DNA from: Stratiformator vulcanicus | Lineage (GTDB): Bacteria; Planctomycetota; Planctomycetia; Planctomycetales; Planctomycetaceae | Length of the DNA stretch: 64,000 bases | Reading direction: 5' to 3' | Assembly: GCF_007744515.1 (NCBI RefSeq) | Contig: NZ_CP036268.1 | Coordinates: 4,645,113-4,709,112 of the forward strand | Shown: one piece after another, positions 38,917 to 48,398 of the stretch | Layout of the letters: every line of letters begins with the position of its first letter | Numbering within the stretch: the stretch's first letter is position 1 | Translations under genes and position numbers: made by a program | The notes under the pieces: model-generated | The model's input: the letters and a program-made list of their open reading frames with translations, nothing else | Told to the model about the DNA's origin: nothing | Databases searched by the model: none

Positions 38917-40275
38917 ATGCGCAGAAAACGGATTCGGCTGATTGCAGCCGCCTATTTACTATTCGCAGCAGCCGCCATCTGGGGATTTTCAGTCGGTCGA
39001 TATGAGGCCTTCCCATGGGCATATCTTAGTCCCATCGAAAAGTTTGTTCTGTTTGTTCCGGAAGTGGAAGAGAAGCCGACTCTAGTCCAGAAGCTCACGA
39101 AGCACCGAATGGAGACACCTTCATTGTTTGCGGCGGACGGATTCGTCATGCGAGATGACGAGTTCGTCGATCCAGGCTATTTACTAATGTCTCGCTACAG
39201 CAGTGCTCACAGCCAGACGATTGTAGAGCTTGTCCGCTTGAGAGACTTCAGAATATTACATTCGTGGATTCCCCCTGTTGACGAACTTCTAGAGACCATG
39301 TTCCCGGAGCAGGAACCCATGATCTCTTACAATCGTTCACGAGACGGGTTTGCCGCCCGTCATCCGTTACTGTTGCCTGATGGCAGAATCGTAGTTCATC
39401 CTGGTTTAGGAGCCCTATTTTGCCTCGATAGGCAGAGCCGTGTTGTTTGGAGGCTTGGTAGCAAATATGCATGCCATCATTCGATCGATATTGATGCAGT
39501 CGGAAATGTTATTGCCGCTGGAAACATTGCTTTTCCGGGCGAACGAACTTGGCCGGAAGGACTCGACGTGTCCAGCAATAGAACCTTTCCTCGTGACGGC
39601 TACTTTGTCGTCTCGCCCGAACATGGTGAAGTATTGCGCAGTGAATCGGTCGCCGACATTTTGGTTCACAATAATTTTCATGGATTGTTATTCGGAATCT
39701 CACAAAGGGGCGATACTCAAGACTCTCTCCATCTGAATGATGTGCAACCGCTTCGATACGAAGTTGGCGAGTACCGATACGGAGATCTGGCGTTTAGTCT
39801 CCGGGACATTTCGACTGTTTTCGTTTACCGTCCCTCTACTCGAAAAGTTCTATGGCTCAGAACCGGACCATGGGTTTCGCAACATGATGTGGATATGCTG
39901 CCTGACGGCGACTTTACGGTTTTCAGCAATAACAGTTATCGCAAGGAAAAAGAGAAGTATCGGGAGATTAGTAATGTCATTCGGTTTAATGTCAAGAGTG
40001 ACGAATTCGATGCACCTTACGACGAGATCTTGCGCGAGGTAGGCTCCTTTACGATGTCACAAGGTTGTTGCCGCGTGCTTCCCGGAGGCGACGTCGTGTT
40101 CGAGCAACAAAACGAAGGGCGAGTCTTTCGCGTTTCTCGCCGTGAAGTCCGTTGGGAGTTCGTCAATAAGACGCGTGACGGATACGCGGGGTGGGTCAAC
40201 TGGTGCCGGTATTATCTTGCATCAGAGATCGATCTGTCATGGCTCGAGCGAGTTTCTCATGATGATTCAATTTGA
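38917..40275 (+). CDS. Arylsulfotransferase-like (ASST) beta-propeller protein
   Basis: This protein has an N-terminal membrane anchor (AAYLLFAAAAIWGFSVG) and an exported remainder. The repeating propeller-like blades carry HHSIDIDAVGNVIAAGN, SLHLNDVQPLRYE, LAFSLRDISTVFVYRP and VSQHDVDMLPDGDFTVFSNN. These short tracts resemble arylsulfotransferase (ASST) proteins, in which periplasmic propellers move sulfate from phenyl sulfates; the His residues of those tracts are kept. The assignment is by pattern and not certain. The length is 452 residues. Its DNA is less GC-rich than its neighbours, with many TTA, AAT and ATT codons. It overlaps the following small gene by 17 bases. Confidence 0.65.
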   Translation: MRRKRIRLIAAAYLLFAAAAIWGFSVGRYEAFPWAYLSPIEKFVLFVPEVEEKPTLVQKLTKHRMETPSLFAADGFVMRDDEFVDPGYLLMSRYSSAHSQTIVELVRLRDFRILHSWIPPVDELLETMFPEQEPMISYNRSRDGFAARHPLLLPDGRIVVHPGLGALFCLDRQSRVVWRLGSKYACHHSIDIDAVGNVIAAGNIAFPGERTWPEGLDVSSNRTFPRDGYFVVSPEHGEVLRSESVADILVHNNFHGLLFGISQRGDTQDSLHLNDVQPLRYEVGEYRYGDLAFSLRDISTVFVYRPSTRKVLWLRTGPWVSQHDVDMLPDGDFTVFSNNSYRKEKEKYREISNVIRFNVKSDEFDAPYDEILREVGSFTMSQGCCRVLPGGDVVFEQQNEGRVFRVSRREVRWEFVNKTRDGYAGWVNWCRYYLASEIDLSWLERVSHDDSI

Positions 40276-40489
40276 TTTAGTGGGTTTATTGTTCGCATAC
40301 ATTGGACCCGGCCTCGGGGCCGGTGCCGTCGCGATCGTTTGTGGGTTCATCGGCTCGATTTTTCTTGCGGTCTTCGCCCTGGTCTGGTTTCCGCTGAAGC
40401 GGCTGTTCAAAGCGATGAGACGCAGCGTCGGGGATCGGGCGATTGAGAACGATGCCGGCGCGGCACAGCCTATTGACCCCGATACGTAG
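40259..40489 (+). CDS. Small membrane protein with Gly-rich helix
   Basis: The 76-residue protein has one or two hydrophobic helices (FDLVGLLFAYIGPGLGAGAV then AIVCGFIGSIFLAVFALVWF) followed by a basic segment LKRLFKAMRR and an acidic tail. The IGPGLGAG motif resembles small TM proteins found beside surface polysaccharide genes. I do not recognise a named family. ATG 40259 overlaps the end of the sulfotransferase-like propeller gene, so the two are coupled; a second ATG is at 40262. Confidence 0.6.
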   Translation: MMIQFDLVGLLFAYIGPGLGAGAVAIVCGFIGSIFLAVFALVWFPLKRLFKAMRRSVGDRAIENDAGAAQPIDPDT

Positions 40490-40508
40490 TGAAGCTGTGA
40501 AACCTGCG

Positions 40509-40880
40509 ATGCAAGAGTTGTGTCTGTTTTTCGTCTCAGTGTTGATCGCGGAATTATTATGCCGGATCCCGATGGGGCGTCGGGTCGCGCGTATTGGTTC
40601 GGTGGCACGACGTTCTTCCCGCGTAATCGTCTCGAGTCGGGTGTCCGATCACTGGAAGGAACGGGCGATCTTACGTTACTCGGCTCAGTTATCTGTCGAC
40701 ACAACGGTCATCGCACTTTGGTTTGTCATGGTGGCGGGGGCGGTCATCGGTTTCGACCGGCTTTGCGCGTTCGGGTTGAGGTTCTCCCTTTTCGATTATG
40801 CACTGACATTCGGAGGGCTCATGTTGGCGACCGGGTCATCGACGCTCTGGTTGATCGCGAGACGATTTGTTGTTCGCTGA
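40509..40880 (+). CDS. Small polytopic membrane protein
   Basis: The 123-residue protein has an N-terminal helix (ELCLFFVSVLIAELLCRIP), a basic loop and two more helices (VIALWFVMVAGAVIGF; ALTFGGLMLATGSSTLWLIA). No domain is recognised. ATG 40509 is 19 bases after the previous stop. The end overlaps the next gene's TTG start by 14 bases. Its place between the two putative sulfotransferase genes suggests a membrane partner of the same system, which is inference. Confidence 0.6.
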   Translation: MQELCLFFVSVLIAELLCRIPMGRRVARIGSVARRSSRVIVSSRVSDHWKERAILRYSAQLSVDTTVIALWFVMVAGAVIGFDRLCAFGLRFSLFDYALTFGGLMLATGSSTLWLIARRFVVR

Positions 40881-41922
40881 AGACTACAATTTTTTCGAGC
40901 GACTATTGCACAGAATCGCTCTCGGGTCCGCGACAGTGTCGGCCGCATCTTTCGAAGTCCAGCGGCTGGTGGCGAACACCGACACTCCGAAAGTCGCTCG
41001 TGCAAAACATCTGTTCGTCGCAGGGCTGGCCAGAGCCGGAACGACGATCTTGATGCGGCGTTTGTATGAGACCGGAAGGTTTCGCTCGTTGACCTATCGA
41101 GATATGCCGTTCGTCTTAATGCCGGACCTGTGGGGTAGAATTAGAGGCCGCGCGCCCGCTTCCGCATCCGTCGAACGCGCCCACGGCGACGGTATCATGG
41201 TGAATAATGAATCGCCCGAAGCGTTGGAGGAAGTGTTTTGGCGGGTTCACTTCGGTTCAAAGTATATCCGCCCCGACCGACTCAAAAGTTGCGAGTTGTC
41301 GGCCGAGGCTGTTTCACAGTTTCGGGAGTACCTGGCGATTTTGCTGACGGGAACCGATAGCGGAAGGTACTTGTCCAAGAACAACAACAACATCTTGCGA
41401 CTCCGAGTGATCGCGGCGGCATTTCCGAACGCGGTGCAAATTGTCCCATTTCGCGAGCCCCGTTCTCATGCCGCGTCATTGCTGAGACAGCATAGGCGTT
41501 TCTTGAGGATTCACGCCGAGTCGCGCTTTTCAAGACAATACATGCGCTGGTTGGTGCATCACGAGTTCGGTGCCGATCACCGTCCGTTCGAATTCGATCC
41601 CGCGACGGTGATGGTCGGCGGAGATCGTCTGTCATTAGGATATTGGATGCGGCAATGGGTCCACGTGTACCGCGGACTGCTTGACACTGCCCCGCCTTCG
41701 GCGGTTTTCGTGTGCTATGAAGACCTCTGTCGCGAGGATAATCAACTGTGGATGAAGTTGACGGAGATTCTTGAGCTTCCGGTCGTCGAAGGGAGCGACG
41801 TGGGGGGCTTTGTCAGTCGGAACAAGCCGTGCGACGAATCGTTGCCCGAAGGGTTGGAAGCAAATGCGCGGGACTTGTACGAGGTGCTGCAGCGGCGGCA
41901 GGTTGAACGACTTTCTCAATGA
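40867..41922 (+). CDS. PAPS-dependent sulfotransferase-like protein
   Basis: The 5'-phosphosulfate-binding loop KHLFVAGLARAGTTILMRRL (residues 47-66) is of the sulfotransferase P-loop type. A 3'-phosphate-binding region is visible around VIAAAFPNAVQIVPFREPRS (about 176-195). The chain is 351 residues with no signal peptide, so it acts in the cytoplasm on a substrate later exported, or on the inner membrane surface. The start is TTG 40867, with TTG 40870 next. The tail overlaps the convergent gene's end by seven bases. It belongs with the two small membrane genes upstream. Confidence 0.8.
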   Translation: MLFAEDYNFFERLLHRIALGSATVSAASFEVQRLVANTDTPKVARAKHLFVAGLARAGTTILMRRLYETGRFRSLTYRDMPFVLMPDLWGRIRGRAPASASVERAHGDGIMVNNESPEALEEVFWRVHFGSKYIRPDRLKSCELSAEAVSQFREYLAILLTGTDSGRYLSKNNNNILRLRVIAAAFPNAVQIVPFREPRSHAASLLRQHRRFLRIHAESRFSRQYMRWLVHHEFGADHRPFEFDPATVMVGGDRLSLGYWMRQWVHVYRGLLDTAPPSAVFVCYEDLCREDNQLWMKLTEILELPVVEGSDVGGFVSRNKPCDESLPEGLEANARDLYEVLQRRQVERLSQ

Positions 41923-43010
41923 GTTTCGAAAGTCGTTGACGAGCCAGGTAAGGGGAGGCTCGGTTTTTTTGCCGAGCGACGACGCTTCCAAATGATGCCG
42001 TCGACCACATAGTGGTGGAAGTTGATCGATTGATAAATCACGACTGCCGCTACCGGAATGGCGGTAAAAAAATCGACCCTTAAAACGCCACCGATGACGG
42101 CATAGAAAGCGGTCGAAATGGCGAGGCACACCGCGAAGTAACTCACAATGTTGAGCCAGCGCGGCTGACTGAGCCATGACAGGAATCGATGTTGTGGGTC
42201 GATTCCGCTCTTGAACCGATTTTGATTAAACCACCACACAAACATGATGTATTGCGCATTGTGCCATACGTTCAAGACCAGCCAGCCCGTGTCGATGCTC
42301 GTGATCGCGTAGTAACCGATGTAAAACACGGCGAAATGCGAAAGCAGATACATCACAAGAATTGGTCGAGGGTTGCCTTGTCGCCAAGCACGTGCTTCGA
42401 GGATTGCCCACCATCCGAGAAACGTGACGGCGGCCAAGCCGATAATAGTGAGGACAGGCAGTGTGATGGGAATGCAGAAGAGCTGCATCCCGAGAAATCT
42501 TCCGGGGTTTTCATAGGAGCGCCAGGCGATTCCGAAGAGCGGAACCAAATAAAGAGCGGCGCTGGTCACCCGGGATTCGAGCAATCCCATTGAACCCGAC
42601 TTACGTTCGAACGCGCGAAAAATCCCGTAACTCTGTCGTGTATAATGAAACCACTGCCAGTAGAAGTAGAGGCTCGCGATTGACCAGAGCCCGAAGAAGT
42701 AGATCATACCCCCGGAACCGGCGAGGATTACCCACGGAAGCACGAACACGAGAAACCAGTTTTCACGTGCGCTCTTGGCGTCGAAGGCGAGTCGCGTAAA
42801 AGTCGATATGACGTGATGAAACCCGAGAAGCCATATGTCCAGAAAAAGGACTTGGCTGAACAAGTGGGGGTTCAGTACGACAATGTAACCACTGGTAACG
42901 GCCAGTGCCGCCACGCCGAGAATGAGCGTCAGGTCGAAAAACGGTCCGGCAAGCCACGTCCCGCCAAGAACGCGTTTGCCCGATGTCGAAAGTGGTGCTG
43001 AGGTTGCCAT
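41916..43010 (-). CDS. Histidine-rich polytopic membrane protein, function unknown
   Basis: About nine to ten membrane helices are visible in 364 residues. Histidines sit in or near four helices: LLGFHHVISTF, YWQWFHYTRQSYGIF, VWHNAQYIMFVWW and SINFHHYVVDGIIWK. This arrangement is like that of membrane metal-dependent oxygenases or desaturases, but the motif spacing does not match a family I can name. The gene runs on the minus strand and meets the sulfotransferase gene tail to tail. ATG 43010 has no obvious Shine-Dalgarno site. Its role is unknown. Confidence 0.75.
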   Translation of the reverse strand: MATSAPLSTSGKRVLGGTWLAGPFFDLTLILGVAALAVTSGYIVVLNPHLFSQVLFLDIWLLGFHHVISTFTRLAFDAKSARENWFLVFVLPWVILAGSGGMIYFFGLWSIASLYFYWQWFHYTRQSYGIFRAFERKSGSMGLLESRVTSAALYLVPLFGIAWRSYENPGRFLGMQLFCIPITLPVLTIIGLAAVTFLGWWAILEARAWRQGNPRPILVMYLLSHFAVFYIGYYAITSIDTGWLVLNVWHNAQYIMFVWWFNQNRFKSGIDPQHRFLSWLSQPRWLNIVSYFAVCLAISTAFYAVIGGVLRVDFFTAIPVAAVVIYQSINFHHYVVDGIIWKRRRSAKKPSLPLPGSSTTFETH

Positions 43011-43236: not shown

Positions 43237-44775
43237 GTGACCCGCCCAGCCAAGTTCTTCTCGTTTGCTGCCGCATTTTTCGCCGCCGGGTATGCCGGGC
43301 TGATCGCGCTGACCGGTTGCCTCGCAGCGTTGCTGGCGGGGGAGTCCCCCTTCTACCTGTTCACGCGGCAGTTCTGGATCGACGAGTCGATCACGTTCAT
43401 GCTGGCGGAGTTGCGGAACCCCGTTACGCAGGTGCAGCGGCTCGCCGAAGGGGCCGACCTGAATCCGCCGGGGCATCTGTTCCTACTCGACCTGTGGCAC
43501 CTCATTTGGTTTTGGCCGTCGGAAATCTCGGTGCGGGTCTTCAGCCTCGCATCGGTCGCGGTCGGGGCGACCGCGGTGGTGCTGACGCTTCGGAAGACAT
43601 TCGACGTTCAGACGGCATTCATCGCGACGGCGACTGTGCTGCTTGTGCAGCAGTCACTTTTGATGCAGGCGTTCGAGGGGCGGTTCTACGCACCGCTGTT
43701 CGGAGCGGCCGGCCTGCTCTGCTTAGCACTTAATTCGCGCGATCGCGGCTGGTGGACGCCGCTCTCGATCTTCCTCGCGGCCGCCCTACTCTGTTCGATT
43801 CATTACTTCGGCCTGTTCTCGGCGGTCCTCGCGGTCACCGGCTATGCGGCGGGAAATCTGCCGAACGTAAAACGAGCCCTTTCTCGAATAATCGCCGGGG
43901 CTGCGGGCGTCGGTACGATGGTGCTTTACATCCCGCTGATGCAAGCTCAGAAAGCGGCGTTGGGTGACGCCCCGACGTGGCTGGAACCGCCGCTGTTTCA
44001 AGATATAGCGGCGTTTCTTATAAGCAGCTACGCAGCGACGGCTATTCTTCTGGCCGCAATCGCGGCCACTTTATCCGTGTTGTGGATTCGCCCTCCGTTT
44101 AACCCGAGCTGTAATTACTCAATTAACTCACCCGCAGCCCTCACGACGGTGCTCTCGTTTCTTGTGCTCCCATTCGTGATGCTTTGGTTCACTTATGTGG
44201 TTCAGCCGGCGTACGCCCCCCGCTACGGGATTAATACCGGAATCGGGGTCATGGGTGTCGCCGCGTTTCTCCTCCGCGGAACTAATCGAAGGATTCAGCT
44301 CGCGCTGATCGCAACCTGCGTGCTGATCGGCGTGACAACTCTCGTCACTGCGAAATCGCGATTTCGCCCGCCGCTGTTCGGGCTCGACCGGCCCGTCGCC
44401 GCGGCGATTAACCCTGCGCGTGATCAGATCTCCGCCGAGACACCGCTTATCGCCTATCGTTATCTCGGCATTCAGGCGTGGCGTTACGGCGGGCTGCCCG
44501 CCGATCACCTGCGAATTTTGATGCCCGACATCGACCGTGACGGCAAGCTTCTCGACCGACATCAATGGAGAATGCTCGAGAACGTCGCTGACGCGATGGA
44601 GGCCCCCCGGCCAATCGGCGTTTTGGAATTAAGCACGCTGCGCCAGTTCTTTCTTTTGCGAGACGGCAGCGAAACTCAGCTCGACTTAAGCTCTCTTGAC
44701 GAGCCGCCCTTTGAGAGAAAACTAGTTGACGAAGTCGATGGGCGCCTCTCCCTCTATTATTTTGAGATTCAGTGA
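43237..44775 (+). CDS. GT-C fold glycosyltransferase (GT39/ArnT-like)
   Basis: Multi-spanning membrane glycosyltransferase of the GT-C class, which uses lipid-linked sugar donors. The acidic-loop signature FWIDESITFMLAE lies near residue 47, and the next loop reads ADLNPPGHLFLLDLWHLIW, typical of PMT/GT39 enzymes, with a catalytic Asp candidate in the first. There are about ten further helices. The length is 512 residues from GTG 43237. The acceptor is unknown; the nearby sulfotransferases suggest a surface polysaccharide or glycoprotein. Confidence 0.8.
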   Translation: MTRPAKFFSFAAAFFAAGYAGLIALTGCLAALLAGESPFYLFTRQFWIDESITFMLAELRNPVTQVQRLAEGADLNPPGHLFLLDLWHLIWFWPSEISVRVFSLASVAVGATAVVLTLRKTFDVQTAFIATATVLLVQQSLLMQAFEGRFYAPLFGAAGLLCLALNSRDRGWWTPLSIFLAAALLCSIHYFGLFSAVLAVTGYAAGNLPNVKRALSRIIAGAAGVGTMVLYIPLMQAQKAALGDAPTWLEPPLFQDIAAFLISSYAATAILLAAIAATLSVLWIRPPFNPSCNYSINSPAALTTVLSFLVLPFVMLWFTYVVQPAYAPRYGINTGIGVMGVAAFLLRGTNRRIQLALIATCVLIGVTTLVTAKSRFRPPLFGLDRPVAAAINPARDQISAETPLIAYRYLGIQAWRYGGLPADHLRILMPDIDRDGKLLDRHQWRMLENVADAMEAPRPIGVLELSTLRQFFLLRDGSETQLDLSSLDEPPFERKLVDEVDGRLSLYYFEIQ

Positions 44776-44797: not shown

Positions 44798-47700
44798 TCA
44801 CCGGCCTTTGTTTTCTAAGAACTCTTCGAACTGAGCAGCCGAGAGCACGAGCAACCCTTCGCTGGTGCCCAGATATAATTTGTTATTCGCGGCGGCGAGC
44901 GAGAATACTTCCAAGTCAACTCCCCCCACGATCTGATAAAGTCTCCCCGCCTTCGGGTCTCCAGCCAACAGCCCGTGCCCGGTGGCGAAGAGGAAGTGAT
45001 CTTGCCAATAAATGAAGTCAAAAGTATCGGATAGTTCGAACGACGTTGATTGAAAAAAAGTGGGGTCGTCGAGATATGCCCGGATTTCTGGGCGCAGCGG
45101 CGTACCCCCCGACTGCTTCATGGTCAGGATCTGATTCCCATGCAATCGCACACGATTTTTAAATTCGGATTTGATGACCTTTTGTTCGTCCGGCAGATAA
45201 GCGACATCGACCCACTCAAGTCGCACGGAGGGATGAGGCGGTAAATCCAACTTCAGTTCTTCGGAAATCTTCGTTCTCAGATCGAGACAAAAGGCATTTG
45301 CGTATTCGGTCACGGCGTAGAGCATGGCTTGGCCGTGCGTGATTTTGAGCGCGGCATCTACCCGCCCGTTCTTCTCATCCGGGGTTGCCTTCCAGATCTG
45401 ATTGGCAACTCCCTCCTCCGAAATTTCATAGATCGCTCCCTCGCCGCCAACCGCAAACCCTTTTCCATACCCAACTGACAAATCTCTAACCGATCGAGAC
45501 CCTGGCAGCAGTTGCGTGACGCTGTCCGTTTTCGCGTCAACGCGAAAGCCGAACGCCCAAGGTCTTCGCATCGACCCAAGGAAATAAGGCCCGTGCGAAA
45601 TACCAAAAACGGTGTCGTTCCAACTTGATAACTCTCCGACATGAACCTCTTCGGCGTTGTCAATGTTTAATTGCCCTTCACGAGTGGCCATCACACGGCC
45701 GGGCGAAACCTTTTCGTGCGGCACTTCCACTTTAATTAAGTCATGCGCGTCGAGATATTGTATCTCACCAAGTTCCCTTGCAAATTTATTCCGCCAGCGA
45801 AGAAAGTACCCGAAAGAGTCGGAGGTCGACGATGCGATGTATCCCTCTCGAATAGTGATATCAGGACCACGGGTACGTCGCACGACTTCTGGCATCTCGA
45901 ATGATCTAAGCCGTGCCAGCATCTTTCGTTTCTGTTCATTTGACTTGGCGTCCGGCAGTGCCTTTCCGATTATTGTGGAATACCAATACACCGCTTCGAG
46001 GTCGGTCTCTTCAAGCGTATCTAAAAGACGAATGAGATCATCAGGATCGATCGCAAGTCGAGACGTCCCGCCAATCGCGTCTGAAATTCCCACGCAGCCA
46101 TGACTGAACAGCATCAGTCTCGTGTTCTGTGAGTTCAAATGGGCGTCCCGAAAGGAGACGGAAGCTTCAGCCGCAGCGACCAACTCGTCAACAATGTCTT
46201 TGCCGCCGCCCTTGCTGCCGCGAGCCCTCGCCATCAGTACGGCACGCATTATGTGGCCGCAACATTTTTTAATAGGATGAGGTAATTCGACGAGGCGGTC
46301 AGCGAACTTCCATTCATCGGCCGTTGGCATAATCTTCTTGTTACGGGTGGCGGGATCAGCCGACAAGAACAGACGAGTCGCTTCGGGCAACAGGAAGGCT
46401 TGATTGTGTTCAACGCTTGAATCATCCCCATCCAGATTCTGATCTAGAATTTCGCGATAATTGGCCGCCCGTTCCGCAGGTTCCAGATCATGATCAAGGT
46501 ACATTCTGGTGGCCCACTGTTTCGCCGCCAAGGTGAAGCCCGTCTTACCCATTCGACCTCGAATAATTTGACGTGCGATTGGCTCGCGTTGCTCGGGGAA
46601 AGCACGAATATACAGGCCGTCATAAAACGATCCGACACCCGCTCCGGCGACAGTAAAGTAGGTTAGTGACGTTTCTCGATCTCTACGAAGCCGAAGGGCC
46701 GTGACGGCGTAATCCATTGCCGAGACCAAATATGCTTTCGCATCCGCTTCGACTTTAAAACTAGGGCTATAATAACGACCAGAATGGTAGTTCGCCGATT
46801 TTTTCGCCATAGCATGCAGCAATAGCGAGGTGAGAGCCAACAGGTCGGGATCATCTGCCCGAAACAAAAGAGCGTTTTCGGCGGCGGTCATCGCCCGTGA
46901 AAGTTCAGGCCATTCTGTGCGATGATGTCGTTTAAAATGCGGGTTGCCATCTCGATCAAAAAATTTCCCGTCGCGGGAAGCGAGCGGCATCAGCGCAAAT
47001 GCTTGATCCTTTAAGACTGTGTATTCATCATAATTCCGGCCGGCGGCCAGTTTGCGTTTCACTTCTTCCGGGACGTACTCTGAAATGTCGTCGAGTCGCG
47101 TACGGACTGCCGCTGCAATCTCTTTGGGATTCGAATTGTTGTAAGGGAATTCCATTTTCTCCGCCGGGAATAGTCCGGTCGGCGACAGAAAATAGATGGT
47201 GAGCAATTCGGGCTCGACAAAATCTTTCTCTTTCCGCCATCTTTTCTTGTTGTCCGCCTCAACATCACTGGGGGCGGAAAGTCGTCCCAGAATTAAGATG
47301 TCAGAGGGTGCCGAAGTCATACTCTGTTTGACACGTTTGGTCAGTCCGCCGCGCGCTAATTGAAATTCTTTAAGAATATTGGTCGGGAACAGCCGCTCGC
47401 GGAGCACGATTCGATCCGCATTGAACAGGCCACGTCTGAGGTGGCGATGCACGTTGTCGGTCAGTTCAGGCATGAACTTGACCCCCTGCTCCGATGTGAT
47501 GGACCCCAGAGCCAGTTCCAACGAACTGTCGTCGCGCCGGACGAGGTCCACCTCGCGGGACATCCTGAGCACGATCTGACGCGAAGCGCTGATGAGATCG
47601 TCGGACGACTCGGTCGTAAAATCGGTGACAACCGTGCCTCGCGGGAAAGCCGTCACAATGGCGCGAAGCCCCTCTTCGTCTGAATCCGGAACCCGCACGG

Positions 47701-48016
47701 TTGCCAGATAATCGCAACCGAGCAGTTGGCCGACCTTGAGATCGGTCCGCTCTTGGGAGAGATTCAGTTCCTGTTCGGCCACGATCTTGGAAATCGCAGC
47801 CCGCTCCAACACGTCGCCAGTCCACAGTTCCAAAAGATCGGCCTGAAGCAAGGTCTCGACCGCTGCGGAGCGATCCGACGTTCCTCCCTTTTCATCCGAC
47901 GTAAACAACGCGAGGCGGCGGGTTCCCTCTGCCTCGGCGGCAACACCATTGGGCATGGCGAACAGGAGAGCCACTAAGAGCGGGCAATAGCGAGAAAAGA
48001 ACTCGGCACAACTCAT
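44798..48016 (-). CDS. Large secreted protein: CsgG-like domain plus beta-propeller
   Basis: After a signal peptide (YCPLLVALLFAMPNGVAA), residues about 30-160 have the pattern of CsgG/TolB-like peptidoglycan- or lipoprotein-associated domains: RRLALFTSDEKGGTS, then ADLLELWTGDVLERAAISKI and VGQLLGCDYLATVRV. A long helical middle (about 400-650) follows. The C-terminal third consists of repeated segments of propeller type (for example VEHAQNDTVFGISHGPYFLG-like strands, then KLYLGTSEGLLVLSAAQF). The length is 1072 residues. ATG 48016 was chosen because the signal peptide begins there; a longer open frame to 48139 adds non-homologous residues. The role, perhaps envelope quality control, is not known. 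Confidence 0.7.
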   Translation of the reverse strand: MSCAEFFSRYCPLLVALLFAMPNGVAAEAEGTRRLALFTSDEKGGTSDRSAAVETLLQADLLELWTGDVLERAAISKIVAEQELNLSQERTDLKVGQLLGCDYLATVRVPDSDEEGLRAIVTAFPRGTVVTDFTTESSDDLISASRQIVLRMSREVDLVRRDDSSLELALGSITSEQGVKFMPELTDNVHRHLRRGLFNADRIVLRERLFPTNILKEFQLARGGLTKRVKQSMTSAPSDILILGRLSAPSDVEADNKKRWRKEKDFVEPELLTIYFLSPTGLFPAEKMEFPYNNSNPKEIAAAVRTRLDDISEYVPEEVKRKLAAGRNYDEYTVLKDQAFALMPLASRDGKFFDRDGNPHFKRHHRTEWPELSRAMTAAENALLFRADDPDLLALTSLLLHAMAKKSANYHSGRYYSPSFKVEADAKAYLVSAMDYAVTALRLRRDRETSLTYFTVAGAGVGSFYDGLYIRAFPEQREPIARQIIRGRMGKTGFTLAAKQWATRMYLDHDLEPAERAANYREILDQNLDGDDSSVEHNQAFLLPEATRLFLSADPATRNKKIMPTADEWKFADRLVELPHPIKKCCGHIMRAVLMARARGSKGGGKDIVDELVAAAEASVSFRDAHLNSQNTRLMLFSHGCVGISDAIGGTSRLAIDPDDLIRLLDTLEETDLEAVYWYSTIIGKALPDAKSNEQKRKMLARLRSFEMPEVVRRTRGPDITIREGYIASSTSDSFGYFLRWRNKFARELGEIQYLDAHDLIKVEVPHEKVSPGRVMATREGQLNIDNAEEVHVGELSSWNDTVFGISHGPYFLGSMRRPWAFGFRVDAKTDSVTQLLPGSRSVRDLSVGYGKGFAVGGEGAIYEISEEGVANQIWKATPDEKNGRVDAALKITHGQAMLYAVTEYANAFCLDLRTKISEELKLDLPPHPSVRLEWVDVAYLPDEQKVIKSEFKNRVRLHGNQILTMKQSGGTPLRPEIRAYLDDPTFFQSTSFELSDTFDFIYWQDHFLFATGHGLLAGDPKAGRLYQIVGGVDLEVFSLAAANNKLYLGTSEGLLVLSAAQFEEFLENKGR

Positions 48017-48398
48017 CGTTGACAAATCTTTCAAATCGAATCGTTCGGCAACCACAGATTGAACGCAATCACACCAGCACTTCTGAGTTCTGGCAAGCGA
48101 GATTGTCCTCAGGAAGAAACGGCGATTTGACGGCCCCATTGCCGCCGTTTACAATCACCGACTGAACTTGATCTTTCGATCGATGAACGAAAATGGTCAA
48201 CACCTTCCGCATCGCCAGCATTATGATTCCCGGCACGACCGGGGGGCTCTGAGGTTGCGGACCGACGCATGATCGATCACAACCCTCGGGTCACCCGGCC
48301 CGGGGGTTTTTTCGTGGAAGCTCACAGCCATCAGCTATCGGCTGTCGGCTTCCTTGAATCCGAGCTGGTAGCTGAATGCTGAGAGTTGAGAGCTTCGA
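48017..48398 (+). other. Leader region of cimA
   Basis: About 380 bases contain a possible nine-codon ORF at 48223-48252 (MIPGTTGGL), a possible antiterminator pairing (48251-48257 with 48280-48287), the terminator at 48283-48312, and a block of imperfect AGCTG/GCTGA repeats at 48326-48390. No gene is seen. Confidence 0.5.
48283..48312 (+). terminator. Strong intrinsic terminator upstream of cimA
   Basis: CCCTCGGG (48283-48290) pairs with CCCGGGGG (48299-48306), eight base pairs with one G-U pair, with an eight-base loop and then six T residues. There is no plus-strand gene for it to close within the preceding 3.5 kb, so an attenuator for cimA or the end of a small RNA is more likely than a simple operon end. 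Confidence 0.75.

Follow-up and report, generated by a model that had tools for sequence, protein, structure and literature searches.

In the planctomycete Stratiformator vulcanicus, a stretch of 64,000 nucleotides (hereafter the window; positions 4645113-4709112 of a 5.23-Mb genome on a single contig) carries four consecutive forward-strand genes at window positions 38917-41922, which we call A, B, C and D. A preliminary description made from the letters alone had read them as a candidate surface-sulfation cassette, and our gene calls agree with it on their position and strand. We find that the set joins a protein resembling arylsulfate sulfotransferases (ASSTs) and a sulfotransferase of the type that uses 3'-phosphoadenosine 5'-phosphosulfate (PAPS) to two small membrane proteins, that the same order of genes recurs in at least seven phyla, and that the set probably delivers sulfate through the membrane to some target at the cell surface. 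The genes and their principal motifs are as follows.

38917-40275, forward strand: gene A, ASST-like beta-propeller (PF14269) of 452 residues with an N-terminal membrane anchor at residues 8-24, assigned by PF14269 and fold match
39883-39885, forward strand: His323 of A in the invariant QHD motif (31/31 aligned A proteins), the proposed sulfated histidine and putative equivalent of His436 in E. coli ASST
40259-40489, forward strand: gene B, membrane protein of 76 residues with an invariant YxGPG motif (82/82 B matches), found beside D in 66/68 loci
40298-40300, forward strand: Tyr14 of B, the invariant tyrosine of YIGPG (all 82 B matches)
40509-40880, forward strand: gene C, membrane protein of 123 residues with SDHWKE in a positively charged loop, assigned by the C profile and sharing a frame with D in 14/80 loci
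40644-40661, forward strand: SDHWKE motif of C, from the C alignment
40867-41922, forward strand: gene D, PAPS-type P-loop sulfotransferase (Sulfotransfer_3) of 351 residues with a TTG start, assigned by PF13469 and modelled fold
41023-41046, forward strand: P-loop GLARAGTT of D, residues 53-60 (G53, R56 and G58 invariant and T59/T60 nearly so in 45 sequences)
41452-41478, forward strand: R196...S204 of D, both invariant in 45 sequences and presumably binding the 3'-phosphate

Layout and composition of the locus

The short overlaps claimed earlier between consecutive genes were measured as a 17-base overlap of A and B, a 19-base gap from B to C and a 14-base overlap of C and D. For C we took the ATG at 40509 as the start instead of the mechanical TTG call at 40443, because its relatives start there. 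A promoter scan returned 1 promoter-like site against 2.4 in shuffled sequence, and a terminator scan 7 terminator-like sites against 4.7 (s.d. 2.4). Gene A is GC-poor, as had been noted: its GC content of 0.497 is the lowest among the 31 long open reading frames (ORFs) of the window, about 3 standard deviations low both overall and at third codon positions (GC3), and B, C and D have an ordinary composition (GC 0.556-0.566, GC3 0.655-0.659). The whole genome contains one PF14269 gene and one PF13469 gene.

Gene A has the fold of an arylsulfate sulfotransferase and gene D that of a PAPS sulfotransferase

Gene A matches the ASST family model PF14269 at 2.3e-23 (83.5 bits; Pfam cut-off 27). Searches of A and of D against the PDB with phmmer gave no matches, so profiles and structural models were used instead; most of one listing of PDB profile matches, and the top two of the search that aligned the QHD motif with Cpz4, were designed or repeat proteins and were set aside. 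The model of A (predicted local distance difference test, pLDDT, 73.4) finds its closest solved fold in Cpz4 of the caprazamycin pathway (9kf6; Z 26.0, 323 residues aligned, 4.1 A), followed by E. coli ASST (3ets, Z 22.3), with other propellers at 20.7 or below, which identifies an ASST-type beta-propeller. The preliminary description, which had named lack of this fold as fatal to its proposal, was thus right to call A an ASST-like propeller; it had also called the protein exported, and this part did not hold, since A carries one hydrophobic segment (residues 8-24) and is membrane-anchored.

Residues H188, H272, N274 and H323 are present in 31/31 aligned A proteins and R296 in 27/31. The accessible portion of a 2026 review of ASSTs (PMC13426309) gives the active-site residues of the E. 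coli enzyme as His252, His356, Asn358, Arg374 and His436, and also Thr501. The order of the conserved residues, helped by alignment of the QHD motif of A with the QHD of Cpz4, suggests that H188, H272, N274, R296 and H323 correspond to the first five of these, and by analogy A is predicted to take sulfuryl groups from aryl sulfates without PAPS.

Gene D matches the Sulfotransfer_3 model PF13469 at 3e-10 (41.2 bits; Pfam cut-off 27), and its model is of high confidence (pLDDT 93.5). Among the 50 fold matches listed, all were sulfotransferases or sulfotransferase domains, including STF9 (Z 16.8), STF1 (Z 15.9), the human tyrosylprotein sulfotransferases (TPSTs; Z about 15) and Cpz8 (Z 10.2). Both the 5'-phosphosulfate loop and the Arg/Ser pair for the 3'-phosphate are in place, with G53, R56, G58, R196 and S204 invariant in 45 sequences; here we take the names of the motifs and the role of R196 and S204 from what is generally held for the sulfotransferase family. 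The P-loop protein therefore belongs to the class that had been proposed for it, in both fold and motifs.

Genes B and C encode membrane proteins with invariant motifs

Neither B nor C has a significant Pfam match, and NCBIfam gave no useful match to any of the four proteins. Both are small membrane proteins, as had been claimed, with hydrophobic segments in their 76 and 123 residues, respectively. YxGPG is present in 82/82 B matches, and in 67 of these a small-x-small triplet precedes the tyrosine, such that signal-peptide cleavage, judged from this pattern, could leave the tyrosine as the N-terminus of those 67 proteins. Window B is not one of them: it has 13 residues before the tyrosine, and a simple scan places two adjoining hydrophobic segments at residues 8-24 and 26-42.

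The C profile was built from the ORFs of the B-D gap in 47 loci and the window, and matches window C, one of its 48 sequences, at 1.5e-31. D47 and K50 are invariant across the 48 sequences, which have three hydrophobic segments in 33 cases, two in 10 (window C included) and four in 5, and in all 48 the first two segments flank the SDHWKE-type motif. The loop that holds the motif has a mean net charge of +5.5 and the second loop one of -1.2, which under the positive-inside rule would place the motif in the cytoplasm and, in proteins with three segments, the C-terminus and the D protein that follows as well. C and D occupy one open frame in 14/80 loci.

The gene order recurs in seven phyla

Loci were collected by a scan of genome contigs with D alone, from which the best 80 of 352 relatives were kept; these include near relatives (many Sphingomonas, several Mucilaginibacter), and L091 and L046 share one contig. 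Profiles for A and B were refined by iteration over the D-derived loci, phyla were assigned from the submitters' record titles, and the cut-offs were 1e-8 for A, 1e-5 for B, 1e-6 for C and 1e-20 for D. An initial scan of genome contigs with A alone found no relative, and the first profile round, seeded from the window and its relatives only, gave 83 A and 82 B matches over 87 loci.

Among the 68 loci with at least 2.6 kb of DNA upstream of D, A was found in 63, B in 66, C in 62 and all four genes in 57, and 53 had the order A-B-C-D. The presence of C in the gap is partly by construction, because its profile was built from ORFs of that gap, and it is the shared motif that serves as evidence. 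Over all 80 loci the string A-B-C-D occurs in 58 (53 plain and 5 with A doubled), and the four genes stand in this order in Pseudomonadota, Thermodesulfobacteriota, Bacteroidota, Verrucomicrobiota, Planctomycetota, Nitrospinota and Fibrobacterota. An A match adjoins D in 69/80 loci. The remaining 11 comprise five with full flanks (L083, L087, L100, L113 and L141) and six with little upstream DNA (L070, L073, L074, L077, L088 and L110), and a match to the A profile was found elsewhere in the genome in 5/5 and 5/6 of these, respectively. Genes that lay apart in relatives would have counted against the earlier proposal; their conservation as a set makes chance adjacency untenable, and the recurrent order, the shared C-D frames and the presence of A elsewhere in 10/11 genomes bear out the suggestion that the four genes act together.

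In a plasmid collection we found 7 D matches, and the three that were opened all read ASST, hypothetical, hypothetical, sulfotransferase, with genes overlapping or nearly so (one gap of 15 bases). Two further loci, L104 (lacking a C match) and L139, carry the set in records titled Pelagibacteraceae and Alphaproteobacteria, with assemblies of 1.0 and 1.5 Mb in which an APS (adenosine 5'-phosphosulfate) kinase is weakly matched. The record of L130, titled Bordetella parapertussis, is a metagenome-assembled genome of 2.2 Mb, a size that makes its label doubtful.

Within planctomycetes, where a search for the four-gene order had been recommended, the set is sporadic. Of 99 genomes searched, 6 have A and 8 have B, the window's own genome counted in each: G028 has the complete A-B-C-D order, G092 has B-D-A, and in G039, G045 and G176 another gene takes the place of C alongside A, B and D. 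Across 294 genomes of the phylum, PF14269 occurs in 58 and D in 4, all 4 within the 58; the two genes adjoin each other in G000, G039 and G176 and lie on separate contigs in G003. As a control, 13 other planctomycete PF14269 loci (L053-L065), hand-picked from the PF14269 matches of the search in which G039 and G176 have D beside A, and some of them short contigs, contained neither C nor D; a phosphodiesterase headed by YIGPG occurs in two. In the window's family, D was found in 11/170 genomes (45-row profile, 1e-30), with the main type only in the window genome and G028. A tree of D sets the planctomycete variants of G003, G039, G092 and G176 on a separate long branch (100/100) and places window D inside a large multi-phylum clade with no firm neighbour, its highest identity (52%) being to a Roseobacter. 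The sporadic presence of the set and the low GC of A fit transfer, of which the tree is no proof.

PAPS supply and gene neighbourhood

Host genomes were examined for 47 of the 80 loci. APS kinase is present in 45/47 of them, 3 of these being weak matches (E above 1e-12), and the window genome has one copy and thus the capacity to make PAPS. The P-loop motif of APS kinase lies close to D in 5/80 loci, four from Bacteroidota and one other; in L092 and L099 (7084 onward) the APS kinase adjoining D bears an N-terminal membrane-like stretch, which is presumably DUF2061-like.

Flanking families were counted with Pfam on a home-made gene call, leaving out 15 near-duplicate loci and scanning hand-picked proteins (79 of 110 downstream, 70 of 87 upstream). 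Glycos_transf_2 was the commonest upstream family (7 of 70 proteins; 4 of 79 downstream) and APS_kinase the joint commonest downstream (5 of 79). Since no flanking family was more frequent than these two, the cassette seems to be self-contained, and any carrier should be something that most hosts possess.

The window D gene is met from the opposite strand by an ORF of 364 residues (41916-43010), hydrophobic by eye and without a Pfam match, which overlaps the end of D by 7 bases and has the second lowest GC of the 31 long ORFs (0.531). A second reverse-strand ORF (44798-48139, 1113 residues) likewise has no Pfam match and a low GC (0.531).

Planctomycete sister clusters

Several planctomycete contigs carry related arrangements that fill slots similar to those of the cassette. 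In L050 (2462-10592, genome G064), an ASST of family PF05935 is followed by a YIGPG-headed phosphodiesterase of family PF01663, a second PF01663 protein with a weak match to a twin-arginine translocation signal, a membrane protein that we call C', and a P-loop sulfotransferase. An ASST with both phosphodiesterases and C' occurs in L053 (8186-16064) and L063 (834-10858). In L052 (490-6280) the phosphodiesterase pair, C' and a P-loop sulfotransferase occur with no ASST match within 14 kb, and in L049 (8286-11353, genome G042) two tandem ASST genes stand with B and no D was found on the 37-kb contig. The clusters of L050, L053 and L063 share with the cassette an ASST, a YIGPG segment and an adjoining membrane protein, and L050 also the P-loop sulfotransferase, but their YIGPG heads an enzyme of family PF01663, and their C' shows no detectable relationship to C. 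Homology of C to the C' proteins of the planctomycete variants was considered and is unsupported (hhalign probabilities 0.1, 0.1 and 0.7%), although those of variants 2 and 3 may be related to each other (88.5%). Kinship of C' with EMC3 is a guess that has behind it one member's Pfam match at E 0.1.

Comparison with known sulfation systems

A PAPS sulfotransferase linked to an ASST is also found in the biosynthesis of caprazamycin, whose sulfation was reportedly first described by Tang et al. in 2013. In the parts available of three papers on this pathway (PMC6731281, PMC4257720, PMC4924298), Cpz8 is the PAPS-using enzyme that sulfates a triketide pyrone, and Cpz4 then hands that sulfate on. 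The cassette resembles the set of Cpz8, the type III polyketide synthase Cpz6 and Cpz4 in pairing a PAPS-dependent P-loop sulfotransferase with a PAPS-independent ASST, and the best solved fold for A is Cpz4 itself, with Cpz8 among the matches of D. It differs in having no polyketide synthase, in its additional membrane proteins B and C, in the single C-D frame of some hosts, and in occurring across seven phyla, not within an antibiotic cluster. The preliminary description had called the combination new to it; for the enzyme pairing, caprazamycin is a precedent in those same papers, whereas for the four-gene membrane version we found no published description in the literature searched, which lay mostly outside subscription journals.

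With E. coli ASST (3ELQ), which works with DsbL/DsbI, A shares the propeller fold, and its conserved His, His-x-Asn, Arg and His come in a similar order, but the first 114 residues of 3ELQ are unaligned in A and A is membrane-anchored. The neighbours of A are B, C and D, not DsbL/DsbI as in the E. coli operon outlined in the available text of PMC13426309. The mycobacterial enzymes STF1 and STF9 and the tyrosylprotein sulfotransferases share the fold of D, the latter as a fold match only, yet their identity to D is 12-16%. To our knowledge, none of these is paired with an ASST.

A proposed relay for sulfation outside the membrane

Structurally, A corresponds to Cpz4 and D to Cpz8, so that a serial model is the simplest, one in which D loads a carrier, A unloads it, and B and C bridge the membrane. 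We favour, with moderate confidence, the view that the four genes form one functional unit that moves sulfuryl groups through the inner membrane in a relay of two steps. C would hold D at the inner face, where D would use PAPS to sulfate a phenolic carrier; the sulfated carrier would then reach the outer face, B and C serving as a membrane scaffold or path; and A, anchored at that face, would accept the sulfuryl group on its active-site histidine and hand it to an extracytoplasmic acceptor. The predicted sidedness of D and A follows from the positive-inside rule and the membrane anchor, and a phenolic carrier is proposed since known ASSTs take aryl sulfates; we infer the relay itself, and an acceptor at the cell surface, from these pieces together. 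That one protein carries sulfate across the membrane for the other had been suggested in the preliminary description, and it is the most economical reading of an ASST fold and a PAPS-sulfotransferase fold in one set. A more tentative extension is that the carrier is a membrane phenol present in all hosts (the invariant tyrosine of B, a quinol of the respiratory chain or some other lipid phenol), loaded inside by C-D and unloaded outside by A, which would make the cassette a general machine for sulfation outside the membrane.

Several observations weigh against the relay. A lies away from D in 5/68 loci with enough DNA, no match to the A profile was found in the host genome of L077, the match in that of L088 is weaker (3.4e-23), and matches away from D could be ASSTs with another duty. 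G003 has a relative of D and no A by the A3 profile, although PF14269 is matched on a different contig. In the window's own phylum, several relatives fill the C slot with a gene not detectably related to C, which implies that C is not indispensable, and a shared open frame is not proof of a single C-D protein. The confidence of the A model is middling (pLDDT 73). APS kinase is absent from 2/47 hosts and weakly matched in 3 more. The flanking proteins scanned include no constant neighbour that would make a phenolic carrier, and a type III polyketide synthase occurs in just 9/47 hosts (8 above cut-off), which rules out a Cpz6-type polyketide carrier as the general donor; the sole such synthase of the window genome lies about 757 kb from the cassette. 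Finally, the putative ASST Hoch_5094 is mentioned in connection with PAPS use in the available part of PMC13426309, and if such use were general a carrier would be needless.

PAPS sulfotransferases and ASSTs are each known to act alone. The two enzymes might work in parallel: D would make a sulfated end product from a precursor in the cytoplasm or membrane, and A would independently transfer sulfate from aryl sulfates outside the cell onto that polymer or lipid, so that both decorate one product. Bacteroides vulgatus, for example, carries one enzyme of each kind according to the accessible text of PMC13426309, and Glycos_transf_2 proteins stand near some loci, at the counts given above. Against this, no glycan family is constant among the flanking proteins scanned, an A match accompanies D in 79/80 host genomes or loci, which exceeds what a shared product would need, and the caprazamycin precedent is a serial path; we regard parallel action as rather unlikely.

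We consider it improbable that the cassette handles phenols, with D sulfating a toxic phenol for export and A recycling or trading the sulfate outside, as detoxification rather than construction. ASSTs act promiscuously on phenols in vitro (PMC13426309, available part), but for a soluble detoxification one would not expect both enzymes to be membrane-associated or the set to be fixed in seven phyla, and no frequent aromatic-degradation family appears among the 25 commonest flanking families listed. Least plausible of all, and in our judgement very hard to sustain, is the earlier proposal that the acceptor is a surface glycan built with the GT-C-like enzyme encoded at 43237. Its one argument is proximity, in this window, where the opposite-strand gene at 41916-43010 intervenes; the 43237 protein has no Pfam match, a phmmer search (E up to 0.01) of the 20 loci L046-L065 turned up no relative of that gene or of the two genes beside it, and no glycan gene was constant as a neighbour among the flanking proteins scanned, and we accordingly dropped the link.

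Implications

According to the available part of the 2026 review (PMC13426309), no natural substrate has been identified for ASSTs as donor in more than 40 years, a statement made despite the caprazamycin case already being in print. A conserved partner able to make the donor turns the ASST donor question into a test on defined proteins, and gives a context to the membrane proteins B and C, which have no significant match in Pfam or NCBIfam. The relay would explain how members of several phyla can sulfate surface molecules although PAPS is made in the cytoplasm. If a membrane phenol does serve as the carrier, the cassette would be the equivalent, for sulfate, of sugar transfer on lipid carriers, and many ASSTs, a large group, would gain an identified native donor.

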